From: Acidobacteriota bacterium
GTDB lineage: Bacteria > Acidobacteriota > Blastocatellia > RBC074
Length of the DNA stretch: 64,000 bases
NCBI GenBank assembly: GCA_016196035.1
Contig: JACPYM010000005.1
Span: 1 to 64,000, forward strand
Direction: 5' to 3'
The position numbers were made by a program, and so were the translations under genes. The notes beneath the pieces are model-generated. The model saw only the letters and a list, made by a program, of their open reading frames with translations. It searched no databases and had not been told where the DNA came from. Of the stretch, positions 7,177-27,376 are shown piece after piece. How positions within the stretch are numbered: position 1 is the stretch's first letter; every line of letters starts with the position of its first letter.

Positions 7177-8248
7177 GCCAAACCAGCCAGGCTTTTTCGG
7201 TCAGGAACTGATGCGCGCCCGTCGCGTCGAGTTCATAACCAGCGGGCGCAGCGGTTTTCAAACTCCCTTCGATTTGCGGGCTGAGCGTGCTGGCCTGACC
7301 CAACGCCGCCAGCAAGTATTCACGCGCATTGAAGCCGCCGCGTTTCAGCACCGCCGCCGCGCGCCCTTTCGCTTGCCATGCCTCAGCGACCGGCACCAAC
7401 AAACTCTGTTCATCGGCGGCTTGCAATAAGTAGCGGACTTGCCACGCTGTTGAGGCGCGGCCACGCGGCGACGGAGCTTCAGTTTCATCGCCCGGCTCTT
7501 CCAACCGAAAGCACAGGCGGAAAGGTGTGGCAGTCGTGATGGTCAGCGGACGCTGCCAATCGCGCACCTGCGCGGCCAGTTGCCGCAATTCGGCGGGCTT
7601 GCCGCTGAGGATGGCCGATGTGCTGCGCAGCGCGTGCAGCCATTGATCGTGCAAGCTGTCGAATTCGCGTTTGGTTTTGCGCGGCGTTCGTGTGCGTGGT
7701 TCAGCAGCGACGCTGAACCGCGCCAGATGATCCACCAGCGTGTCGAGCAACTCTTGCAACACCTCCGTTGCCGCCGGAGCCTGCGCCCCATCTTCTGTCA
7801 TCGCCCGGCAACTGTGTGGCAACGCGCGCGCCAGTTGTGTCACGCGCTGCGCATCGCTCCCAGTCAACAGCGGTTGCCAGCAAGCGCGATACTCCTCGTC
7901 TTCCAAGCGCACGCCCGGCATTATCTGTTGCCGTGCCACCAGCGCGCCCGCGAACCGCAAGACCGAAGCGCAATAGGCCAGGTCATTGCCGATCAACACG
8001 CCTGGCACCAGCGTCGTTTGCCCTACGCAATGGCAAAGCAACTCGACGGCTTCAATAGTGGCCAGCGGTAACGCCGTGACCGTCCACTTCGTCAACACGG
8101 CTTTCGCCGCGTCCACAGGCGGTTCCGCAATCAACGGACTGGAAGCCAGCGCCGCTTGCCCCAGCGCAGGCAGCCAGATGGTTTGCGGCAACGTGTCTGC
8201 CGTTTCCAGTTCCAAGTCCGAAAAGACGTCGCCCAGTGCGGTCAGCAA
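7052..8248 (-). CDS. SNF2 helicase, N-terminal part
   Basis: An open frame of about 398 codons whose first roughly 355 codons match the accessory N-terminal region of bacterial SNF2 helicases (LPQTIWLPALGQAAL, FRLCFRLEEP, REYLLAALGQAS). After TEKAW the reading leaves the true frame at the 4-bp duplication and the last codons are out-of-frame sequence. No helicase motifs are present in this fragment, so it would have no ATPase activity on its own. Confidence 0.7.
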   Translation of the reverse strand: MLTALGDVFSDLELETADTLPQTIWLPALGQAALASSPLIAEPPVDAAKAVLTKWTVTALPLATIEAVELLCHCVGQTTLVPGVLIGNDLAYCASVLRFAGALVARQQIMPGVRLEDEEYRACWQPLLTGSDAQRVTQLARALPHSCRAMTEDGAQAPAATEVLQELLDTLVDHLARFSVAAEPRTRTPRKTKREFDSLHDQWLHALRSTSAILSGKPAELRQLAAQVRDWQRPLTITTATPFRLCFRLEEPGDETEAPSPRGRASTAWQVRYLLQAADEQSLLVPVAEAWQAKGRAAAVLKRGGFNAREYLLAALGQASTLSPQIEGSLKTAAPAGYELDATGAHQFLTEKAWLVWRAVARVVDAQGDEAAADGARQCQKSEAGGGRRPDAQRHRAI

Positions 8249-20884: not shown

Positions 20885-21973
20885 ATGAATCCAGTGGCGT
20901 TACTTCAAGTGCAGTTAATTCCCGATCAGGCTTCGACCTTTGCGGTTGAGGTAGACCTGTTTTACATCGCGTTGTGGCTGCTGACCATTGTCTTCTCAAT
21001 TGGAGTGGCGGCGGCGGCGGCCTATTTGATGCACAAATACAAACGGCAGCGCACGGATCAGATCGGGGTGAACGTGCACGGCGCCATGATTCTGGAAGTT
21101 ACCTGGACGGTGATCCCGTTCATCATGGCCATGGGCATTTTCCTGTGGGGCGCGAAACTTTACTACGAGATGTACAAAGACCCGCGCGATGCGATGGAGA
21201 TTTATGTCACCGCCAAACAGTGGATGTTTCGCGCGCAGCATCCCGATGGCCGCCGCGAAATCAACGAATTGCACATCCCGATGGGCCGCCGCATCAAGCT
21301 GACGATGACGAGCGAAGATGTCTTGCACGCCTATTTCATCCCGGCCTTTCGTACCAAGGCCGACATCGTGCCGGGCCGTTACACCTCGACCTGGTTCGAG
21401 GCGACCAAGCCGGGCAGTTATCATCTGTTTTGTGCGGAGTATTGCGGCACGCAGCATTCCGGTATGGTCGGTACGGTTTACGTAATGGAACCCGCCGAGT
21501 ATCAAGCCTGGCTGGCGGATGGCAGCGGCAATATCGCTCCCGCCGAAGTGGGCAAAAAAATCTTTGCCACGATGGGCTGCAACACCTGCCACAAAGAAGA
21601 CAACAGCGGACGCGGCCCCTCGCTCTTGGGCGTTTATGGCAGCCAGGTCAAGTTGACCAGCGGGCAAGCGGTTTTGGCGGATGACGCGTATGTGCGCGAA
21701 TCCATTCTGCGCCCGCACGTGAAAATCGTGGCGGGGTATCCTTTGATGATGAGCACTTATCAAGGTCAGTTGACCGAAGAACAAATTGTGCAGGTCATCG
21801 CCTATCTGAAATCTATCGGGAAACAGGAAGCCAATGCGGCTGGGGCTGCGGCTCCGGCTGCTCCCGCGACAGGCGCGCCAGCACTGGCTGCTCCGGCAGC
21901 GGGTGCGCCTGTGCCACCGGCTGGGGCGGCTGCGAAACCTGTGACCAGACCGGCGACCAAACCGGCCAACTAA
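20885..21973 (+). CDS. ctaC: Cytochrome c oxidase subunit II with fused cytochrome c
   Basis: A 362-residue protein with two N-terminal transmembrane helices, a cupredoxin domain and a C-terminal heme domain. CuA ligands are in [12 protein letters not shown] plus the upstream histidine of DVLHAYF. The fused cytochrome c has CNTCHKED and a distal methionine region (PLMMSTYQG). This is a caa3-type arrangement, so electrons can enter without a separate soluble cytochrome. The last roughly 40 residues are an Ala/Pro repeat ([18 protein letters not shown]), probably a flexible tail. Confidence 0.94.
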
Positions 21974-22119: not shown

Positions 22120-23787
<1,668 letters not shown>

Positions 23788-23798
23788 CTGACGTGCGT

Positions 23799-23901
23799 TG
23801 TACAGCAGGCTGCCAGCCTGCTGCGGCCACCGGCGCTAGTTTTTATCGGTTGCCAGGGCGCACACGTTCCAAGCTGCAGCAGGCTGGCAGCCTGCCATAC
23901 A
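23799..23901. repeat. GCAGGCTGCCAGCCTGC inverted element between ctaD and ctaE
   Basis: Two quasi-palindromes, GCAGGCTGCCAGCCTGCTG at the left and GCAGCAGGCTGGCAGCCTGC at the right, face each other with flanking TGTA and TACA, giving an inverted repeat of about 26-bp arms with a loop of roughly 50 nt. A single unit of the same sequence occurs at 27357. It ends about 20 bp before the ctaE start. Confidence 0.85.
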
Positions 23902-23921
23902 TTTTCTCAAGGAGAATCACC

Positions 23922-24617
23922 TTGTCTGAACACGCAGCACACGTACCCGGACTGCAACATCATTTCGCCACGATGGAGCAGCAGAAAGAGGCGGGCACCA
24001 TCTGAATGTGGGTCTTCCTGCTGACCGAATTGATGTTCTTTGGCGGCCTGTTTCTGGCGTATACCATCTTTCGGGCCACCTATCCGGAAGGGTTTCTATT
24101 CGGCAGCCACCTGCTCAACGTCCCGCTGGGCGGCACGAATACGGTCGTGCTGATCGTCAGCAGCTTGACGATGGCGATGGCCGTTTACTATTCGCAACTC
24201 GGCGATAAAAACAAAGTCGTGTTTTTTCTGGTCATCACGTTAATCCTGGGCTGCACGTTTTTAGGGATCAAGTATGTCGAATACAGCGCGAAGTTCGAGG
24301 ATCATCTCTTCCCGGCGCTGACCTGGTATCACCCGCCGACCGAAGGTCCGCACGGCATACCGCTCGAATTGCAGCAGCAGGTGCGGGTGTTTCTCTGGAT
24401 TTATTTCATGATGACCGGGCTGCACGCCTTGCACATGATCGTCGGGGCGGGGATTCTGATTACCTTGATTGTGATGGCCCAGCGCGGGCGTTTCAGCAAA
24501 GAGTACAACATTCCCATCGAGATCAGCGGCTTGTATTGGCACTTCGTTGACATCGTCTGGATTTTCCTGTTCCCGCTGCTCTATCTGACCGGCTTTCACG
24601 TCGGCGGGGGACACTAA
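23922..24617 (+). pseudogene. ctaE: Cytochrome c oxidase subunit III with an in-frame TGA
   Basis: The full gene would start at TTG 23922 (AAGGAG site 8-9 nt upstream) and encode about 230 residues. The N-terminal part ([17 protein letters not shown]) runs in the same frame into [14 protein letters not shown], but the codon between, at 24003-24005, is TGA. Homologous subunits have a glycine at this point, so GGA to TGA is the simplest explanation. The rest has the expected helices and ligands, ending [11 protein letters not shown]. The gene sits in an otherwise intact oxidase operon; translation may restart at the adjacent ATG. Confidence 0.8.
24006..24617 (+). CDS. Cytochrome c oxidase subunit III, open part after the TGA
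   Basis: A 203-residue frame beginning with the ATG that immediately follows the TGA. It covers all but roughly the first 27 residues of subunit [15 protein letters not shown], the EGPHGIPLE loop, and the histidine-bearing final helices ([18 protein letters not shown]). Only the cytoplasmic N-terminal segment is lost, so a restart product may still assemble with subunits I and II. No separate ribosome site is evident; coupling by TGAATG is possible. Confidence 0.8.
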
Positions 24618-24653: not shown

Positions 24654-25022
24654 ATGGCAGAGCATAGTTCCGCACATTCATCCGAACATCATCTGGTACC
24701 GCTCAAATATTACTTTGGCGTATTTGCGCTGTTGATGGCGCTGACCGCGCTGACGGTTTTTGTGGCGAGTTTCGACTTAGAGAAAGTCTGGGGGCCGCTC
24801 AACGTCATCGTCGCGATGACCATCGCCGTCATCAAGGCCACCGCCGTTGTGATGATCTTTATGCACGTGCGCTGGAGTTCCAAGCTGACGCAACTCATCA
24901 TCATCTCAGGCATTTTTTGGCTGGTGATTTTGCTGGTGCTGACCTTTACCGATTATTCGGTGCGCATCAAGCACGGCTGGCCGACGCCGCTGGGGCAGGT
25001 GGAAAAGACGGCGCAGCGTTAG
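24654..25022 (+). CDS. ctaF: Cytochrome c oxidase subunit IV
   Basis: A 122-residue protein with a His-rich N-terminus (HSSAHSSEHH) and three transmembrane helices (about residues 18-40, 47-70, 80-102), matching prokaryotic COX subunit IV. MIFMHVRWSSKLT between helices two and three is typical. It is the last gene of the act-cta run and is followed by a strong terminator, which supports the operon boundary. Confidence 0.88.
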   Translation: MAEHSSAHSSEHHLVPLKYYFGVFALLMALTALTVFVASFDLEKVWGPLNVIVAMTIAVIKATAVVMIFMHVRWSSKLTQLIIISGIFWLVILLVLTFTDYSVRIKHGWPTPLGQVEKTAQR

Positions 25023-27356: not shown

Positions 27357-27376
27357 GGCAGGCTGCCAGCCTGCTG
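27357..27376. repeat. Single GCAGGCTGCCAGCCTGC unit
   Basis: A quasi-palindrome between the biotin carboxylase and biotin carrier genes, the same sequence as in the element at 23799-23901. Confidence 0.8.

Follow-up and report, generated by a model that had tools for sequence, protein, structure and literature searches.

An in-frame TGA at a conserved glycine codon in the caa3-type ctaE gene of an Acidobacteriota genome looks like an ordinary event

In an Acidobacteriota bacterium (GenBank assembly GCA_016196035.1) the gene for cytochrome c oxidase subunit III, ctaE, carries a TGA codon where glycine is expected, which raises the question whether the gene is still used, recoded or lost, or whether the base itself is wrong. 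The stop lies in a stretch of 64,000 nucleotides (contig JACPYM010000005.1, positions 1 to 64,000), referred to here as the window. Our data suggest that the ctaE TGA is an ordinary event and not a new mechanism. The likeliest reading is a recent mutation after which translation restarts at the neighboring ATG, and an error in the base ranks a close second. The features of the locus are as follows.

20885..21973, + strand: ctaC, oxidase subunit II, intact, 362 aa (NCBIfam CoxB, 176.7 bits against a cut-off of 147.7)
22120..23787, + strand: ctaD, oxidase subunit I, intact, 555 aa (NCBIfam CtaD_CoxA, 673 bits against a cut-off of 670.75)
23909..23914, + strand: AAGGAG, a Shine-Dalgarno-like site with a 7-base spacer to the TTG start at 23922 (from the sequence)
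23922..24617, + strand: ctaE frame, oxidase subunit III, TTG start, one internal stop (Pfam COX3, 64.7 bits against a cut-off of 23.8)
24003..24005, + strand: in-frame TGA, codon 28, at the place of Gly or Ala in other homologs (translation and homolog codon count)
24006..24617, + strand: core frame of 203 residues, beginning at the ATG that abuts the TGA (frame list and structure models)
24654..25022, + strand: ctaF, caa3 oxidase subunit IV, intact, 122 aa (NCBIfam caa3_sub_IV, 84.7 bits against a cut-off of 37.25)

We found that ctaE, which lies between ctaD and ctaF, is clearly the subunit III gene of a caa3-type oxidase. Subunits II, I, III and IV follow one another in the order of a caa3-type operon, with subunit III assigned by Pfam and the others by NCBIfam. 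The Pfam score of 64.7 bits for COX3 (PF00510) was obtained with X placed at the stop, and the match scored 47.7 bits in the search of the organism's own genome. Four NCBIfam subunit III models, whose names point to other lineages or to quinol oxidases, also matched, all below their cut-offs (best, 105.7 of 190 bits). Compared with heme-copper oxidase subunit III in general (CtaE/COX3), the window gene has the Pfam match, sits between ctaD and ctaF, is modeled with five long helices and is 66-80% identical to its eight best matches in the family, and it differs in falling below the four NCBIfam cut-offs and in having a TGA at the conserved Gly28, which leaves the frame in two. Translation of 23922-24617 ends in FHVGGGH at the C-terminus and has the TGA as its single internal stop. 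The frame is split into 27 and 203 residues; a continuous frame that includes the conserved N-terminal tail was not found.

The earlier note had read a single ctaE frame from the TTG at 23922 across the TGA and had expected glycine at the stop, and both points are borne out. Residues on both sides of the TGA align without gaps with these eight best matches (L004 to L011), and two more family genomes match more weakly (G007, 45%; G010, 40%). Our set of homologs comprised 110 sequences including the window, 30 being loci from 58 related genomes and 80 coming from among the public-collection matches listed; at least two loci (L016 and L039), whose contigs have equal lengths, look like a single genome entered twice. 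The place of codon 28 is Gly in 106 of these listed homologs, Ala in three and a stop in one, the window only. In one homolog (L115) the following codon is TTA, not ATG. Flags of one TGA on three loci (L012, L021 and L022) are terminal stops just inside the match, and the stop letters in 6 of the 80 listed public-collection loci are also terminal; similar flags stand on three weaker rows (G037, G011 and G030).

Across the phylum, a search pattern that covered TAA and TGA, not TAG, at the place of codon 28 matched one of 396 genomes, the window genome itself, and GGN in the same flanking pattern matched 138 of the 396. Since genomes matching neither pattern either lack ctaE or have different flanking codons, fewer than 396 ctaE genes were actually tested. 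We rejected conserved or programmed recoding or readthrough because the stop is in no other listed homolog and in only this one phylum genome. Among the papers listed in a literature search, none dealt with a broken ctaE.

We consider a very recent single base change in the Gly28 codon, with restart at the adjacent ATG, to be the best explanation, and give it a probability of roughly 0.48. The codon before the change was presumably GGA, since no other Gly codon can become TGA by a single substitution; a point against the change is that GGA is the rarest Gly codon in the sampled long frames (982/15,085). Ribosomes would start at the TTG at 23922 and terminate at the TGA at 24003, and part of the terminating ribosomes would restart at the abutting ATG at 24006. 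The product would be a subunit III of 203 residues that lacks the first 28 residues and keeps the rest of the helical core, and ordinary UGA leakiness would likely add a minor amount of the complete protein, with Trp inserted at the TGA. The base at 24003 would then be real, and the oxidase would presumably still work, probably less well.

Restart at the adjacent ATG had been raised in the earlier note as one possibility, and it now stands as a leading rescue, with the ATG directly 3' of the TGA at a stop-start distance of 0, a distance that fits termination-reinitiation. Huber et al. 2023 (PMC10666635) reported that reinitiation by terminating ribosomes drops steeply with distance in E. coli and Haloferax; in three E. 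coli gene pairs, a distance of 2 bases lowered restart by 5, 20 and 70% relative to the native overlap. The ctaE junction is like the system described there in that the stop adjoins the start, and unlike it in lying inside one ancestral gene and in not being conserved; the commonest natural distances given in that work are overlaps of 4 and 1 bases, unlike the distance of 0 here. The ATG at 24006 is preceded by a weak GAGG with a 14-base spacer, the same arrangement as at the ctaF start.

With codon 28 taken as GGA, a reckoning made after seeing the case gives 72 single-base routes to a stop in ctaE. An ATG directly follows the stop in 2 of them (codons 28 and 37), and any of ATG, GTG or TTG does so in 5. 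Codon 28 is the earlier of the two ATG-adjoining routes, and restart after codon 37 would lose half of helix 1 in the model. This favors a tolerated mutation over a random error, with the limit that the count is post hoc.

The restart would remove a conserved part of the protein. In an alignment of 47 rows, F15, Q20 and Q21 of the N-terminal tail are invariant, and H13 and G28 are conserved in at least 90%; rows outside this alignment that differ at conserved tail residues are L046, L055, L076, L101 and L115. We know of no role assigned to the conserved HHF..QQ tail of subunit III. An upstream in-frame start codon is present in all 109 other listed homologs, and therefore the tail-less form is not seen in nature among them. 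In the full-length model, with Gly at the stop (mean pLDDT 87.6), helix 1 spans residues 18 to 53 and holds Gly28 inside it, while the 203-residue model (mean pLDDT 86.6) has five long helices, the first starting at residue 30 in full numbering. Restart therefore shortens helix 1 in models that do not tell whether the protein works. If the base is real, the locus offers a natural N-terminal deletion of subunit III and an example of how a stop that adjoins an ATG might be tolerated.

We compared the two sides of the stop with five relatives. The 27 codons 5' of the TGA have dN values of 0.09-0.23 and dS values of 0.56-1.27, and the 105 codons 3' of it have dN values of 0.13-0.29 and dS values of 1.11-1.88, with one dS (L004) undefined. 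Low dN/dS on both flanks indicates that the stop is very young, is still read through, or is an error. The upstream stretch is short, at 27 codons, and holds 9 residue changes relative to L005 and 4 or 5 relative to the other four relatives; in the comparison with L005 the core is the better conserved part (20 of 105 residues changed, 9 of 27 upstream). Restart alone, if long established, would have let the upstream part drift; since this part is mostly free of drift, the stop is not long standing with restart alone. In-frame stops in bacterial genes have been described as widespread and short-lived (Belinky et al. 2021, PMC7918605). The ctaE TGA resembles such nonsense changes in being a single stop in a gene under purifying selection with no sign of age, and differs from those of the main analysis in that report, which are common to at least two species, in occurring in one genome only.

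A base-call or consensus error, with the organism carrying a normal Gly codon and a normal ctaE, is a strong rival, somewhat less probable than the mutation with restart. The TGA is confined to one draft assembly (139 contigs, 9.59 Mb) among the relatives examined, neither side of it has decayed, and the operon is otherwise intact, all of which argue for an error. An error also has to start from the rare GGA codon, and so, equally, does a mutation. Arguing the other way, the TGA sits on one of only 2 of the 72 routes that leave an adjacent ATG. Moreover, when 1.6 Mb of a relative (G008) was compared with 912 kb of the genome itself, 81 conserved hits covering 33,611 aa contained no other interior sense-strand stop, which indicates that errors are not dense, in a test that is weak for substitutions because few substitutions make a stop. 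The stops found besides that of ctaE were two near query ends and two in antisense-looking alignments, as judged by eye. Run in reverse, the comparison showed stop letters in the relative for 4 of 84 hits.

We also scanned 912 kb of the genome by codon usage and obtained 24 stops whose flanks look coding (12 TAA, 7 TAG and 5 TGA). The ctaE TGA is not among them, as the part upstream of it scores -2.2, and the scan is therefore blind to stops near the start. Pfam searches on 5 of the 24 sites placed a selenoprotein-like TGA and a DUF6036 TAG inside a domain; the others were a kinase TAG, one small frame without a family and one site that is two neighboring genes. Judging from their sequences, the kinase and DUF6036 frames are likely interrupted accessory genes, both with TAG. 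Taken together, the homology comparison and the scan indicate that interrupted genes are rare among conserved genes and are not confined to TGA, and both are poor gauges of the base-substitution error rate. The kinase frame, of Ser/Thr protein kinase type, lies on the minus strand near 43,895 of contig C2 (L178), with its TAG at the second residue of the domain. If the ctaE TGA is an error, it is a warning that a lone in-frame stop in a draft genome should not be taken for recoding, even when the genome uses selenocysteine.

We asked whether a real stop might be passed mainly by readthrough, with tRNA-Trp reading UGA, so that subunit III would be made in full but at a lower level and with Trp in place of Gly. 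UGA was the leakiest stop in E. coli reporters and was mostly read as Trp (PMC11126739), and a readthrough of 6% for a TGA in B. subtilis is quoted in PMC7918605; readthrough would also explain why the 27 upstream codons still look selected. However, the base after the TGA is A and not the G that raises readthrough in PMC11126739, Trp in place of a nearly invariant Gly inside helix 1 is a large change, and the conserved stop that marks programmed readthrough is missing. We regard this explanation as unlikely.

Slightly less likely still is a true loss of function, in which the caa3 oxidase lacks a working subunit III and a second oxidase carries respiration. Contig C57 carries CcoN- and CcoO-like genes of another oxidase from the COX1 family. 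Both score below the NCBIfam cut-offs for cbb3, and from its sequence this oxidase is probably of cbb3 type. Together with the loss of the conserved N-terminal tail even after restart, these genes are consistent with a loss of function; the intact state of the rest of the gene and of the operon, and the likelihood of some restart at the abutting ATG, speak against it. With this second oxidase present, losing the caa3 enzyme is not necessarily fatal. The earlier note had held that loss of subunit III would be costly, and this part of its reading is less certain than claimed, whereas the frame, the expected glycine, the otherwise intact operon (ctaC, ctaD and ctaF each score above their NCBIfam cut-offs) and restart all stood. 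The check for other ctaE copies that it had proposed turned up none of caa3 type in the genome. A lone, divergent subunit III-like frame lies on contig C54 (L174:7356-8015) between long frames that we take to encode TonB-dependent outer membrane proteins. We rejected this COX3-like frame as a backup ctaE because it is too distant (33% identity over 67 residues). The near-palindromic element CAGGCTGGCAGCCTG occurs at window positions 23806-23820, 23880-23894 and 27359-27373, the first two between ctaD and ctaE, and gives 6 strand matches in the window against 0.26 expected.

A stop fixed in the strain, with a working caa3 oxidase whose subunit III is produced through the TGA-ATG junction as two pieces, a tail peptide of 27 residues and a core of 203 residues, seems very doubtful; if it were true, it would be a natural test of the role of the conserved N-terminal tail.

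Decoding of the ctaE UGA as selenocysteine, or by a suppressor tRNA, is extremely improbable, even though the gene content makes it very likely that selenocysteine is inserted at UGA elsewhere in this genome. A search for the selenocysteine machinery found both components sought, a tRNA-Sec with anticodon TCA on contig C60 (66.9 bits) and SelB on contig C95 (363.7 bits against a cut-off of 242.25). The frame beside the tRNA-Sec is peroxiredoxin-like; a TGA lies within its domain, and 21 bases 3' of that TGA comes a hairpin whose loop reads AGGUA. The ctaE UGA resembles bacterial selenoprotein recoding in that it occurs in a genome with tRNA-Sec and SelB, and differs in that no SECIS-like loop follows it and the homologs examined have no Cys at its place. 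The 53 and 73 bases from the ctaE TGA fold like shuffled sequences (z of -0.43 and -0.67), with no AGGUA-type loop and no SECIS-like hairpin after the TGA. This check consisted of folding and comparison with one positive control, the peroxiredoxin-like (AhpC/TSA-like) frame. The control itself gave z values of -0.99 (53 bases) and 0.18 (73 bases), and since these are modest, the contrast between ctaE and the control rests on the loop and not on stability. Selenocysteine mostly arises from redox Cys (PMC1794560), whereas the residue replaced here is Gly, and Cys occurs at this place in none of the 109 other listed homologs.

No tRNA with a UCA anticodon other than tRNA-Sec was found among 69 tRNA places, and since 150 of 267 candidates were scored, a missed tRNA is possible. 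A second place above the tRNA-Sec cut-off, on contig C64, was rejected since ARAGORN calls it tRNA-Ser. A code change of UGA to Gly likewise found no match, the Gly anticodons being TCC and CCC with no tRNA-Gly bearing UCA in a draft that is 96.92% complete. Nothing in the evidence points to a new decoding mechanism.

Several further observations were made on these contigs. The likely selenoprotein of the AhpC/TSA family (L156:7759-8397, contig C60) has its TGA at 8035-8037, three residues before a Cys (UxxC), and the tRNA-Sec gene (L156:8409-8507) adjoins it. One tRNA gene, on contig C24, received the odd anticodon call aagg. Dense tRNA arrays were found on contig C2 (L157:2003-3710, 15 genes) and contig C67 (L158:1065-2328, 12 genes), and in both many anticodons duplicate those of tRNA genes at other places in the genome. 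The sequence CCGCTTGCTCACGCGCGCGGTAC marks a dispersed repeat, present for example on contig C2, and its peptide LLTRAV appears 52 times in a six-frame translation of 912 kb.
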